The notes under the pieces: generated by a model | Told to the model about the DNA's origin: nothing | Databases searched by the model: none | Seen by the model: the letters and a program-made list of their open reading frames with translations, nothing else | Position numbers and translations under genes: made by a program | From: Myxococcales bacterium SG8_38 | Lineage (GTDB): Bacteria; Myxococcota_A; Polyangia; Polyangiales; Houyiibacteriaceae | NCBI GenBank assembly: GCA_001303415.1 | Contig: LJTN01000003.1 | Location: forward strand, 1 to 64,000 | Direction: 5' to 3' | Length of the DNA stretch: 64,000 bases | Part shown: one piece after another, positions 56,843 through 62,042 of the stretch | How the letters are laid out: each line of letters starts with the position of its first letter | How positions within the stretch are numbered: the stretch's first letter is position 1

Positions 56843-57955
56843 TCAGACCCCGACCACGGACTTCAGGTACCAGACGATATAAAGGAACTGGAGGTTGCAG
56901 CCGGAGCAGAAGTACTCGAGGTCGTCGGGGTGGGCGATGTGGCCGTCGATCCAGTGATGAAGGAGGCGCCCCTGCGCGTCGTCGTAGAGGTTCAGGCGAA
57001 GGAACGTGAGGATTTCCTCGAAGCGCTCGAGATAGATCTGCTTTCCCGTGTTCTGGTAGAGCAAGAGAAGGGCCAGGTTGAAGTAGTTCTGACTCGATAG
57101 CGTGCTGTACTCGTCGGTCTGCGCGCCCATGTATTCGGCGCTGTAGGGCGAGCGATAGAAGCCGAGCTCGTGCCGCAAGGGCGCCACGCCCTCGAAGGCC
57201 GTCTCGGCGCGCTCGAGATAGTCACGGTCGCCGGTCAGCTCGTACAAGCGATTGAGCACGAGGATCATGATTGAGTTGGGATAGAGAAAGAGCTTGTCTT
57301 CCCCGGGTCGGAACAGGTAGCGCTCGCCGTCGAACGCCTGCTCGTCGATGGCCTGGACGATTTCCACCGCCGCGTCGATACGGTCCTGGGTGCGGGGCGT
57401 GTCCAGGTACTTGGCATACTGCAGGTTCAGCAGGGCCAAGCCCCCGGTGATGGAGGTGGGACCGTAGGTGTCGGCCGCATACTCCCCGAGCGACACGTCG
57501 AGGTAGTTATCGTAGATCCCGACCAAGAAATTGCTCAGGTCGATGAACGTGTCGAGCGTGGCGATGGCGTCGGTTTCTCCGGTCGCGGAGGCGTGCTCGA
57601 TCAGGCCGAGCGCCGCATACAGGACCTCTTCGAGGTGTTCGGCGGACCACTCGGGGTCGCTATTGGCCTGCTGCAGGACCGAAAGGTCGTAGTCGTGGAT
57701 CTCGTCGGCGCGTTGCAGGTAGGCGGCGTCCTCCAGCTCGACGCCGACGCGGGCGTAGAAGGCGAGGGCGTAGAAGTTGGCGTCACTGTAGTCGTCGAAA
57801 TACTCCCCCTCGACGTAGTCGAAGGCCGCGGCCTGCTCGCGTAGCGTGTCGTAGAAGGCCTGCAGCTCGTCGGTCGAGCCTTCCGTGGTGTCGTCACCGC
57901 AGCCGGTCAGACCGAGCAGCACGGCGCAGGCAAGCACCGCAATCGGTTTGAGCAT
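56843..57955 (-). CDS. Lipoprotein, helical-toroid/glycosidase-like
   Basis: MLKPIAVLACAVLLGLTGCGDD lipobox; YAALGLIEHASATGETDAIATLDTFIDLSNFL, Trp/Tyr-rich helical repeats; alternative start near 58000. Confidence 0.85.
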   Translation of the reverse strand: MLKPIAVLACAVLLGLTGCGDDTTEGSTDELQAFYDTLREQAAAFDYVEGEYFDDYSDANFYALAFYARVGVELEDAAYLQRADEIHDYDLSVLQQANSDPEWSAEHLEEVLYAALGLIEHASATGETDAIATLDTFIDLSNFLVGIYDNYLDVSLGEYAADTYGPTSITGGLALLNLQYAKYLDTPRTQDRIDAAVEIVQAIDEQAFDGERYLFRPGEDKLFLYPNSIMILVLNRLYELTGDRDYLERAETAFEGVAPLRHELGFYRSPYSAEYMGAQTDEYSTLSSQNYFNLALLLLYQNTGKQIYLERFEEILTFLRLNLYDDAQGRLLHHWIDGHIAHPDDLEYFCSGCNLQFLYIVWYLKSVVGV

Positions 57956-58056: not shown

Positions 58057-59571
58057 TCACGCGGCCAGCGAGCGTCCCACGTGCAGTCCCATGGCGTAGA
58101 TGGAAAGCTGCGGCGGCACGCCAATTGACGACGGGAAGAGCGACCCATCGGCGACCCAGAGATTGTGCACATGGTGGTGCTTCCCGTCGCTGCCCACCGG
58201 CGCACGCTGCGGGTCGTCCCCCATCGGAACCGAAGACATCGGGTGCACGGCCACGACGTCGAGCTCGCCCTTCTCGATGGGCATGGTCTTCAGCCACTCG
58301 AGGTCGTCGCCCGGCTCGAGCATCCTCGGCGTCCGCAACGGAATCAGCACGCGTTTCGCCCCCGCCGCGAACAACGCCTTGGCGCACGCCCACATCCCGA
58401 GCGAGAGCTCCGCACGGTCGGCCTGGTCGGGCCAGTATTCGATGGACAAGCCGAGCTTCCCCTTCGGCCGCACCTTGCCCGGCGTCAAGTCGTGGATCAT
58501 CGCCGTCAACACCCCGAGGTGGGCGTAGCGTTCCATCAGCGCCCTGTGCATCGCGCCGTGGCCCGGCACCATCGTCGCCGTCCCCATCGGGTGCGCGAAG
58601 ACCGGCAGAACCCACGTGCGGTGGCCGTCGGGCTTGTCGAACTCGAGGAGCTCCGTGCACTCGTAGCTCTGCGGAATCCCCTCCCACGCCTTCACCGGCT
58701 CTTCGAAGTCGCCGGCCGCAATCACCGCGGGGTGGATGCGCAGCGTGTTCCCCGTCTCGCCGGACGGATCCGGCACACCCGAGCGCAGAAGCAGCGCCGC
58801 GGTCCCGGTTGCCGACGCCGAAAAACACACTCGCTTGGCAGTGATTTCCACTTCGCCGAGGACCTGGCGTGTCACCGGATCGATGGCCACGGCCTCGACG
58901 CCCCGCGCCGCGCCGCCCCCGTGCACCACCCGCACCGCCAGGCAGTTTGTCAGCACCTCGCCGCCTGCCGCGAGCAGCCGCGGCAGCAGCACCTTGAAGG
59001 CGTTGTTCTTCGCGTTGTAGCGACACCCGATCTCGCAGAAGCCCGCGTTCACGCAGCCGGAGCGGTTGTGCAAGAGCCCTCCGCCCTTCCACCCGAGCTC
59101 GCTGCAAGCCTTCTCGAGCAACAGGTTGTTCCGGTTCCATTGCTCACGCGGGACGGCACTGACGCCCAGAAGCTCCTCGAGCTCCTCGTAGAGCGCGGTC
59201 CATCGGGAGGCCGGCAGGTGCTCGAGGCCCCGCGTGTGCGTCCACTCGGCGCGAATCGCCTCCGGGATGCGCTTGATGAGGTTGAGGTTGTGCAGTGTGG
59301 ATCCCCCGACCCCGCGCCCTTGGTGGATCTTCACGGCGCGATCCGTCGAGCTCTGGTTGCCGCCGTCCTGCAGCAGCTTCGGGAACATCTGCTCCTCGCG
59401 CTGCGACATGTCCTTTGAGGTCAAGTACTCGCCGCCCTCGACCACCAACGTGCGCACGCCGGCCTCGGCCGCCGCCATCGCCGCCGCCATGCCTCCGGCA
59501 CCGGAGCCCACCACCACCAGGTCGGTGGACAGCTTGAGCGGGAGCGCGCACGTGGAGGCGTCGAAAATCAC
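58057..59571 (-). CDS. GMC-family oxidoreductase (FAD)
   Basis: DLVVVGSGAGGMAAAMAAAEAGVRTLVVEGGEY; GRGVGGSTLHNLNL; FAHPMGTATM; HPMSSVPMGDDP...LWVADGSLFPSSIGVPPQLSIYAMGLHVGRSLA; GTG start overlapping the upstream stop. Confidence 0.93.
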   Translation of the reverse strand: MIFDASTCALPLKLSTDLVVVGSGAGGMAAAMAAAEAGVRTLVVEGGEYLTSKDMSQREEQMFPKLLQDGGNQSSTDRAVKIHQGRGVGGSTLHNLNLIKRIPEAIRAEWTHTRGLEHLPASRWTALYEELEELLGVSAVPREQWNRNNLLLEKACSELGWKGGGLLHNRSGCVNAGFCEIGCRYNAKNNAFKVLLPRLLAAGGEVLTNCLAVRVVHGGGAARGVEAVAIDPVTRQVLGEVEITAKRVCFSASATGTAALLLRSGVPDPSGETGNTLRIHPAVIAAGDFEEPVKAWEGIPQSYECTELLEFDKPDGHRTWVLPVFAHPMGTATMVPGHGAMHRALMERYAHLGVLTAMIHDLTPGKVRPKGKLGLSIEYWPDQADRAELSLGMWACAKALFAAGAKRVLIPLRTPRMLEPGDDLEWLKTMPIEKGELDVVAVHPMSSVPMGDDPQRAPVGSDGKHHHVHNLWVADGSLFPSSIGVPPQLSIYAMGLHVGRSLAA

Positions 59572-61208
59572 GTCGGCCCTCCCGCGCTCTTCGGAGCTGT
59601 CCGCGACGGCGCCGCGCTCTTCGGAGCCGTGCCCGACGGAGCCCGGAAGCCCTCGTACTTCGCGTGGTCGTTCTCCGGCCCCAGCACTTCCTTGGGCCAC
59701 GGCCCGCCGTAGCCGATTCCCCGCCATGCGGCGGCGTCTTGGTACACGCCCATGAGAACCAGATCCCTGAGCCCGCGAAAGGCCTGGGCCATCAGCCCGC
59801 CCCGTGCGTTCAAGGAAAGCAAGAAGGCCTCCCTGGCGTCCGGCGGTAGGTTGGTGAAGCGCGAGAGCCGCAGGCCGAGCGGCGTCGTCCCATGCTCCAC
59901 GAGCCCAAGCAGCTGGTGAATCTCCTGCTGCATGGCTTGCGGCATGGGCACCAAGAACCGGTCGACATTGGCTGCGACCACCAATCCATCGACGCTCGAC
60001 ACGCCCGCCAAGACCGGCGTCGCCGCGGCCAGCACGTGCGCCTCCCAGCGCGCCAACACCGTGCCCGTCCAGTCGGGCAGCGCCGGATAGCCCGTGACCC
60101 GCGCCACCGCCACCGCGCCGAGCGCCGCCAACCCGCCACCGAGGATCACGCGTCGCCCCACGCGCACCGGAGACGCCGCGCGGTCGATGCGCGCGTTCAG
60201 TCGCGCCGGCAGCTTCTCGCGCCAGTCGGGTAGGTGGGGCAACGGGCTTCGGCGTACGGTGTTCCAGAACAGCACCCGCTGCGGCGCCCGCCCCGCTGCC
60301 GCATCGGCCAATAGCGCTGCGAATGCCTTCCCCGTGTACACCGTCTCGATGGGCACGCCCTCCTGCCGAAGCACCTCGACCGCCGCTAGCGACTGCGCGG
60401 TCGGAACGCCGTAGCCCGCGCCGAGCTGGTTGCGGACGACGTGCACCGGCACGGCCTGCTCCGCCTTCGCAGACACACCATGCTCGCTCAGCCACCGGGC
60501 CGCAGCGGTGATTTGCGAGCGCACCGTCCGCGCGGAGGTGATCCAGCGTTCCACCGTCGCCACGGCCCGCACCTCCGTCTTCACGCCGGCGAGCCCCAGC
60601 CCCAAAGCGAGACCCGCCACCGTTCCGCCGGTGCCGAGTGCGCAGTACACGACGTCCGGCACCTCCAGCACGCCCTCCCGAATCTGTTCCGCGAGCTCGA
60701 AGCCCGCGCGCGCCACGCCCGCCACGCTCGGAGGCAGCGTGCCGCCGGGGGGGATCACCGGCATGCCATCGATGCGCGTCGAAGTGAGCAGCGCGCGGCG
60801 CCTCAGCCACAGCTCGAGGCGGGAGCCGTAGTAGTGCAGCCTCGTCGGGCCGGAGGCCACGAACGCGAGGTTCTCGAGCACGCCGTTCGAGAGCGGCTCG
60901 AAAAAGAGGTGTGCGTCCACTCTGCGCCCGAGCGCGTGCGCCGCCGCCGTACAGGCCGCCAGGTGCCCCGAGCCGATGGCGCCAAGCGATGCCCAAGCCG
61001 GCGCGTCCTTGAAGGGTGGCGTCGCCAGCAGCACGTCGAGCTTGCGCGCCTTGTTCCCGCCGTGGAGCGCGTCGAGCTGATCGTCCCGCTTCACGTTCAG
61101 TGCCCCGAGGCGCAGATGCTTTGCCAGATCCGGAAGCGAGGTCACCGGCGACGGCCTCTTCACCCAGCCGAGCGAAGGCAGTGCTGCGAGCTTGTCCGAC
61201 GGGCCCAT
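59568..61208 (-). CDS. ACC deaminase/D-cysteine desulfhydrase-like PLP enzyme fused to GMC small-subunit (gluconate 2-dehydrogenase subunit 3)-like domain
   Basis: LNVKRDDQLDALHGGNKARKLDVLLA (PLP Lys motif), ALGTGGTVAGLALGLGLAGV; then RVGRRVILGGGLAALGAVAVARV and VDRFLVPMPQAMQQEIHQLLGLVEHGTTPLGLRLSRFTNLPPDAREAFLLSL...AWRGIGYGGP; one uninterrupted ORF. Confidence 0.9.
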   Translation of the reverse strand: MGPSDKLAALPSLGWVKRPSPVTSLPDLAKHLRLGALNVKRDDQLDALHGGNKARKLDVLLATPPFKDAPAWASLGAIGSGHLAACTAAAHALGRRVDAHLFFEPLSNGVLENLAFVASGPTRLHYYGSRLELWLRRRALLTSTRIDGMPVIPPGGTLPPSVAGVARAGFELAEQIREGVLEVPDVVYCALGTGGTVAGLALGLGLAGVKTEVRAVATVERWITSARTVRSQITAAARWLSEHGVSAKAEQAVPVHVVRNQLGAGYGVPTAQSLAAVEVLRQEGVPIETVYTGKAFAALLADAAAGRAPQRVLFWNTVRRSPLPHLPDWREKLPARLNARIDRAASPVRVGRRVILGGGLAALGAVAVARVTGYPALPDWTGTVLARWEAHVLAAATPVLAGVSSVDGLVVAANVDRFLVPMPQAMQQEIHQLLGLVEHGTTPLGLRLSRFTNLPPDAREAFLLSLNARGGLMAQAFRGLRDLVLMGVYQDAAAWRGIGYGGPWPKEVLGPENDHAKYEGFRAPSGTAPKSAAPSRTAPKSAGGPT

Positions 61209-61411
61209 AGCCAGATGGAGGGCGACGCTACCACCAACGACGGGGCCTAGCGAACCGAACACGCAACGAAGTACCCCCGGCCGCCGCTTCGTCCGCAACG
61301 CCCTCTGCCGCGCAACTTCCGCGTGAACCTGCCGATGACGAGGAGCATGTCGGCGCCCGCTTGCAGCCATCGTTTCGCTTGTGTAGCTTATGGGCTACAT
61401 GCCTCATTTCT

Positions 61412-61756
61412 ATGACACACGTCGAGACCGAAGTCCGCGTCTACCAGAGACCCGACGGCCGCTGCCCGTTCGACGATTGGCTATTGGCCCTGAGGGACAT
61501 TCGCGCTCGCGCACGAATTCGCGCCCGCATCGCTCGCCTTCGCGAGGGCAACTTCGGCGACGCCAGACCAGTTGGCGATGGCGTGCACGAGCTCAGGGTT
61601 CACTATGGCCCTGGCTACCGCATCTACTTCGCGCAGGAGGGAAGGGCGGTCGTCGTCCTTCTCTGTGGTGGCAACAAAGCAACGCAGCCCCGCGACATCG
61701 CTCGCGCCAAGCGCTACTGGAGGGCACATAGAAATGCCGACAATCCCCTATCGTGA
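61412..61756 (+). CDS. RelE/HigB-like (Gp49-type) toxin
   Basis: VETEVRVYQRPDGRCPFDDWLLALRDIRARARIRARIARLREGNFGDARPVGDGVHELRVHYGPGYRIYFAQEG...LLCGGNKATQPRDIARAKRYW. Confidence 0.94.
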   Translation: MTHVETEVRVYQRPDGRCPFDDWLLALRDIRARARIRARIARLREGNFGDARPVGDGVHELRVHYGPGYRIYFAQEGRAVVVLLCGGNKATQPRDIARAKRYWRAHRNADNPLS

Positions 61757-62042
61757 TTTGCTCCTGAAGCGTCTTCAGGATCCCACCGAGGCCGCCCACT
61801 ACCTCACCGCCTGCCTCGAAGAAGGCGACGGAGTCTTCCTCATCGGCCTTCGTGACGTCGTCGACGCGCAAGGCGGCATGGCACATCTCGCTGAGGCCAC
61901 CGGCCTCAATCGAGAAACCCTCTACCGAACCCTCTCCGAAAACGGAAACCCTCGCCTCTCGAGCCTCAGCCTCATCATCGAAGCGCTCGGCCTACGCCTG
62001 CGCATCGAATCCCCCGAAGACGACCCCCGCGCCGCCGAGTAG
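61734..62042 (+). CDS. HigA-like addiction-module antidote (HTH)
   Basis: YRDLLLKRLQDPTEAAHYLTACLEEGDGVFLIGLRDVVDAQGGMAHLAEATGLNRETLYRTLSENGNPRLSSLSLIIEALGLRLRI. Confidence 0.95.
   Translation: MPTIPYRDLLLKRLQDPTEAAHYLTACLEEGDGVFLIGLRDVVDAQGGMAHLAEATGLNRETLYRTLSENGNPRLSSLSLIIEALGLRLRIESPEDDPRAAE

Follow-up and report, generated by a model that had tools for sequence, protein, structure and literature searches.

The window, the whole stretch of 64,000 nucleotides that was analysed, contains a fusion gene at positions 59568-61208 of the minus strand, which encodes a protein of 546 amino acids. Three modules follow one another in this protein: a fold-type-II PLP domain, an internal twin-arginine and hydrophobic segment, and a Gluconate_2-dh3-like small-subunit domain. 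The first-pass annotation had described this region as one ORF, and the translation confirmed an intact reading frame from the ATG at 61208 to its TGA with 0 internal stops. The overlap that it had reported between this stop and the start of the next gene is seen as GTGA at 59568-59571 (-). The GTG at 59571 begins a GMC flavin-dependent oxidoreductase of 504 amino acids (58057-59571, minus strand; PF00732, E 2.7e-31; PF05199, E 4.4e-18). An AlphaFold model of the fusion had a mean pLDDT of 78, with values mostly near 90 in the PLP domain and low values in the linker at residues 346-372.

Two flanking regions were also characterized. At 61361-62042 (+), divergent from the fusion gene, a gene for a Gp49/HigB-like toxin (PF05973, E 3e-6) overlaps a gene for an HI1420-type antidote (PF21716, E 5e-15); by these matches the two are probably a type II toxin-antitoxin pair. 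Directly downstream of the GMC gene lies a lipoprotein-like ORF (56843-57955, minus strand) with a weak, sub-threshold signal for six-hairpin glycosidases (GH76, GlcNAc 2-epimerase). This ORF was not conserved as a neighbour in relatives.

The fusion of a PLP enzyme to a Tat-escort subunit is a real and conserved arrangement. In-frame fusions were identified in 39 genomes, the window's included, from ten families of Myxococcota. One of these is shortened by a contig end, and the fusion is additionally split by contig ends in two more genomes (G015 and G017). The search of the order gave more full-length fusions with 45-88% identity, and the search of the phylum (379 genomes) gave about thirty; the whole-genome searches covered the phylum Myxococcota. 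A short-peptide scan of genome contigs found only two close Myxococcota relatives, and no match was found in a plasmid collection or a phage-defence library. For two of the fusions the genome assembly is a single contig (11.4 and 16 Mb). The frameshift or assembly error and the lack of conservation against which the first-pass annotation had warned are contradicted by the same in-frame fusion in 38 other genomes, single-contig assemblies among them. A GMC gene lies directly downstream of every fusion, and an RTGA overlap is present at the fusion stop in 33 of 39, a few of which are probably accidental, with the GMC protein seemingly starting later. The proposal that the dehydrogenase receives its accessory subunit as the tail of a PLP enzyme stands, and the pair of genes is translationally coupled and conserved. 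Both the fusion and the GMC gene are under purifying selection (dN/dS between the window and G006: PLP domain 0.20, tail 0.15, GMC 0.19). No conserved neighbours of the unit were found across the order, so the neighbourhood offers no clue to a pathway. Nothing relevant on a published PLP/GMC or Gluconate_2-dh3 fusion was found in the open-access literature. The arrangement is thus apparently undescribed so far, which agrees with the earlier statement that no system with such a layout had been described.

The PLP domain (residues 1-335; 60204-61208, minus strand) belongs to the ACC deaminase/D-cysteine desulfhydrase superfamily. Residues 18-316 match the Pfam PALP family (PF00291, E 8.9e-22), and the GGNKARKLD motif on which the first assignment was based is present. 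The family profile matches the Salmonella D-cysteine desulfhydrase 4d8t with an E value of 5.5e-44, and the best solved matches in Foldseek were the D-cysteine desulfhydrases 4d9e and 4d8t (E 1e-19 to 3e-20, TM-score about 0.82 on the target). In our alignments the predicted Schiff-base lysine, K53 of the GGNK motif (61050-61052, minus strand), is invariant. This lysine, the active-site serine, the glycine-rich phosphate-binding loop and both tyrosines are invariant in the fusion clade wherever the sequence covers them, and the solo PLP members of the clade also retain them. In the Salmonella enzyme (StDCyD), Tyr287 abstracts the C-alpha proton, and Gln77 and Ser78 determine specificity (PMC3344862). 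Y291 and Y266 of the fusion are the counterparts of the Tyr287/Tyr261 pair and are kept in all fusions that cover them. The substrate loop is different. The residues Gln77-Ser78-Asn79-His/Gln80 (QSNH) are replaced mostly by GSG[H/Q] in the fusion clade, with glycine at the Gln77 position and glycine, or alanine in G006 and G017, at the Asn79 position. The superfamily equivalog models of NCBIfam gave 58-107 bits against cut-offs of 289-610. CuyA (D-cysteate sulfo-lyase), XcbE, ACC deaminase and D-cysteine desulfhydrase were accordingly rejected as equivalogs. ACC and D-cysteine, which had been put forward as substrates to assay, are not supported because of the replaced loop (QSNH to GSGH) and the low equivalog scores. 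Since the cofactor residues are kept and the specificity loop is changed, the domain would be expected to retain lyase-type activity but to act on something other than D-cysteine or ACC.

The segment between the two domains was confirmed as a membrane/Tat-like element at residues 349-371 (RVGRRVILGGGLAALGAVAVARV). It contains R352-R353 and a hydrophobic stretch (60093-60161, minus strand) and is a putative internal Tat-type signal-anchor. The twin arginine and hydrophobic stretch are retained in 39 of 39 fusions (five of the 39 scored directly from the sequence by reading), with a near-canonical SRRxFL motif in several. Both elements persist even in the divergent fusions of the order, whose identity to the window falls to about 43-50%. 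The alignment shows that the twin arginine is invariant in standalone small subunits as well as in fused ones, and that the fusion boundary coincides with the start of the standalone proteins. The Tat-type segment is thus internal in the fusion and N-terminal in the standalone proteins. A separate internal start, which the first-pass annotation had raised as an objection and as a check, found no support at the junction: there was no conserved internal start codon or Shine-Dalgarno sequence across the fusions examined, and a few GTG or TTG codons occur nearby in the window. A lone TGA in five matches was considered as a stop between the domains in relatives and was found to be the natural end of the fusion. 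The window's genome encodes TatC. An internal Tat signal behind earlier sequence has a precedent in a Streptomyces Rieske protein (PMC13186574, PMC5449189).

The tail (59571-60092, minus strand) had been called gluconate-2-dehydrogenase-subunit-3-like. On its own, the window's tail falls short of the PF13618 cut-off (13.2 of the required 23.4 bits, E 0.11), but 15 of 21 aligned sequences match this family (best E 5.5e-11). A PDB profile search and Foldseek with the C-terminal model gave no solved structural match for the tail, so it was assigned by sequence homology through relatives, including standalone GMC small subunits. The standalone homologues are about 190 residues long and have an N-terminal Tat signal (for example, LSRRTFVKAFGAALLAA in L034). 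In all 30 of the loci with a standalone copy, a GMC gene follows directly; the small subunit also adjoins the GMC gene in the window and in all fusions. The unfused pair of a PF13618-type small subunit and a GMC protein is a common arrangement in the genomes examined. The window's own genome holds an unfused paralogous pair on contig C11 (L044, 4768-6875), where a small subunit, lipoprotein-like and with a Tat signal, precedes a distantly related GMC gene (28% identity). In another locus (L036, 3067-5175) a small subunit is joined to the GMC N-terminus in one ORF that lacks a PLP domain.

The GMC protein itself lacks a signal peptide. It carries a C-x5-C-x3-C motif (59023-59055, minus strand), the spacing of which predicts ligands of a 3Fe-4S cluster. 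By sequence, this motif is kept in 62 of 62 GMC relatives. In the Burkholderia FAD-GDH, Cys212, Cys218 and Cys222 have the same spacing and hold a 3Fe-4S cluster, and the gamma subunit is a Tat hitchhiker (PMC6719666). A multihaem cytochrome was not conserved near the unit, and frames with at least two CxxCH motifs occurred in two of 48 neighbourhoods.

In the tree of PLP domains all fusions fall in one branch (support 100/100). In ten loci of a separate clade (98/98), the PLP enzyme, small subunit and GMC protein are encoded by individual genes that follow one another. Forcing the operon and fusion clades together was rejected (AU p = 0.004), and descent of the fusion from the unfused operon is disfavoured by this result. 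The GMC tree likewise separates the partners of the fusions from those of the operons, and a few loci without an observed PLP gene are nested within each group. By these trees, an ACC-deaminase-like gene appears to have been joined to such a dehydrogenase twice, or replaced once, and both alternatives point to a functional linkage. Because the second PLP clade is an unfused three-gene operon, the parts are linked in two lineages, and this recurrence makes it very likely that the linkage of the PLP, small-subunit and GMC genes is functional. The halves are not strictly interdependent, since each also occurs without the other. Five Sorangium-like genomes (L081-L085; so called from genome size and tree position) have the PLP domain alone, at about 355 amino acids, with no tail or GMC gene; these and G122, also with the PLP half alone, are nested inside the fusion clade, which suggests that their tail and GMC gene were lost later. 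Conversely, f29 genomes have the GMC protein and small subunit with no PLP gene.

The unfused operons (L171-L180) have an aldehyde dehydrogenase gene nearby in eight of ten loci, which was confirmed by Pfam in L174. They also lie near USP/LpxD-type genes, and the neighbourhood is largely conserved. MATE transporter candidates were read by eye downstream in L126 and L127. One candidate frame had no Pfam match at E 1e-5, so the MATE label is unconfirmed.

From these data we infer Tat export, membrane topology, complex formation and catalytic activity of the two proteins. The reading that we favour, by a modest degree, is a two-protein membrane complex made from one translationally coupled unit, in which a Tat signal anchors a cytoplasmic PLP domain to a dehydrogenase complex in the periplasm. 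The N-terminal domain, which would bind PLP and is probably active as a lyase-type enzyme, would stay in the cytoplasm, and the internal twin-arginine segment would act as an uncleaved Tat signal-anchor. The small-subunit domain would bind the signal-less GMC protein, which may then be carried, folded and loaded with FAD and its Fe-S cluster, to the periplasmic side by hitchhiker export. The outcome would be a periplasmic dehydrogenase tethered one-to-one to a cytoplasmic PLP enzyme. This reading is favoured for several reasons. First, each of the 39 fusions is accompanied by a GMC gene. Secondly, the twin arginine is kept in all of them, and its retention about 350 residues into the protein predicts that Tat moves the tail and the GMC protein and leaves the PLP domain behind. 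Third, the standalone small subunits carry Tat signals and, in 30 of 30 cases, adjoin a GMC gene, and the unfused operons of a separate PLP clade hold the same parts. Lastly, TatC is encoded in the genome, the internal signal has its Streptomyces precedent, and the low dN/dS values and retained PLP-site residues also speak for this reading. Against it, the two halves could be parted by a protease or by occasional initiation inside the ORF. Further points against it are the lack of strict interdependence between the halves, the absence of a solved structural match for the C-terminal model and of a conserved multihaem cytochrome partner near the unit. The first-pass annotation had suggested that the product of the PLP enzyme is passed on for oxidation by the GMC enzyme. 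A direct hand-over is not supported, as the Tat-type segment predicts that the membrane lies between the two enzymes, and either half can occur alone.

A Tat signal behind a large soluble domain is an unusual layout, which also speaks against the favoured reading. This observation fits a different reading, near to the idea of the first-pass annotation, in which both enzymes are on the cytoplasmic face, the arginines and hydrophobic stretch are a mere membrane anchor, and the PLP and GMC enzymes act sequentially on one, perhaps membrane-bound, substrate. The production of both enzymes from one unit with overlapping genes is consistent with such a sequence, and the aldehyde dehydrogenase gene near most of the unfused operons would fit a route from alcohol to aldehyde to acid. 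However, a plain anchor would have no need of twin arginines in every fusion, several of them SRRxFL-like, and in the studied case the GMC family with this cysteine motif and a hitchhiker is periplasmic (PMC6719666). This reading was considered unlikely. Still less probable is a PLP domain without catalysis that serves the dehydrogenase as a scaffold, for instance as a dimerisation module. The remodelled substrate loop and the variation within the fusion clade at the position that corresponds to Asn50 of the PLP site would be compatible with lost catalysis, but fusions and solo members alike retain the lysine, serine, phosphate loop and both tyrosines, and the PLP domain has a dN/dS of only 0.20. 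We give little credence to the idea that the PLP domain is a cysteine-lyase-like maturation helper from which the GMC protein receives sulfide for its 3Fe-4S cluster before Tat export. The closest solved relatives do liberate H2S from D-cysteine, and the GMC partner has the ligand spacing for such a cluster; however, standalone pairs of GMC protein and small subunit have the same cysteine motif without a PLP protein, and the D-cysteine specificity residue Gln77 and the adjacent Asn79 are replaced. Lastly, an internal start that yields two proteins from the one ORF is highly improbable, as the few GTG and TTG codons near the window's junction are the only point in its favour and no start codon or Shine-Dalgarno sequence occupies a conserved junction position, and a sequencing or assembly artefact is refuted by the 39 independent genomes, two of them single-contig assemblies.

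Small Tat-escort subunits accompany many GMC dehydrogenases, most of which, to our knowledge, are without a known substrate. For one GMC group, the conserved fusion and the operon of like composition in a second lineage point to a specific metabolic partner and offer a way into its pathway. Extending the tethered-complex reading, we tentatively suggest, at lower confidence, a phylum-wide, membrane-spanning bifunctional enzyme in which an internal Tat signal links a cytoplasmic PLP lyase covalently to the subunit that escorts a periplasmic FAD/Fe-S alcohol dehydrogenase. The two reactions, one on either side of the membrane, might then serve one undescribed pathway, of which the unfused operon, close to genes for an aldehyde dehydrogenase and possibly a MATE transporter, may be a second evolved form. 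If the internal signal functions as predicted, Tat would export a domain and its passenger subunit with a folded enzyme still attached at the N-terminus, and export with so large an attachment would extend the known rules of the Tat pathway.

Several known systems share parts of this arrangement. Like the Burkholderia cepacia FAD-GDH, which has an alpha GMC subunit and a gamma hitchhiker (PMC6719666), the unit has a signal-less GMC subunit with C-x5-C-x3-C spacing and a small helical Tat-signal subunit encoded beside the GMC gene. Unlike it, the small subunit here is the C-terminal part of a PLP enzyme with an internal RR signal, no multihaem cytochrome c subunit is encoded near the fusion unit, and the tail has no sequence or fold match to a solved small subunit. 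The gluconate 2-dehydrogenase subunit 3 family (PF13618) likewise places a homologous small subunit just upstream of a GMC gene; however, its members are normally separate Tat-signal proteins, and the window's domain alone scores under the family cut-off. With the D-cysteine desulfhydrase/ACC deaminase superfamily (StDCyD, 4d8t) the PLP domain shares the fold, the Schiff-base lysine and the equivalents of Ser78, Tyr261 and Tyr287, but it differs in its substrate loop (Q-S-N-H to mostly G-S-G-H/Q), in its attached membrane/export module and in scores far under the equivalog cut-offs. Lastly, the Streptomyces Rieske protein Sco2149 also has an internal twin-arginine segment, and only its C-terminal domain is exported (PMC5449189). 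Sco2149 has two transmembrane helices ahead of the signal, whereas the fusion has a soluble enzyme domain in that position.
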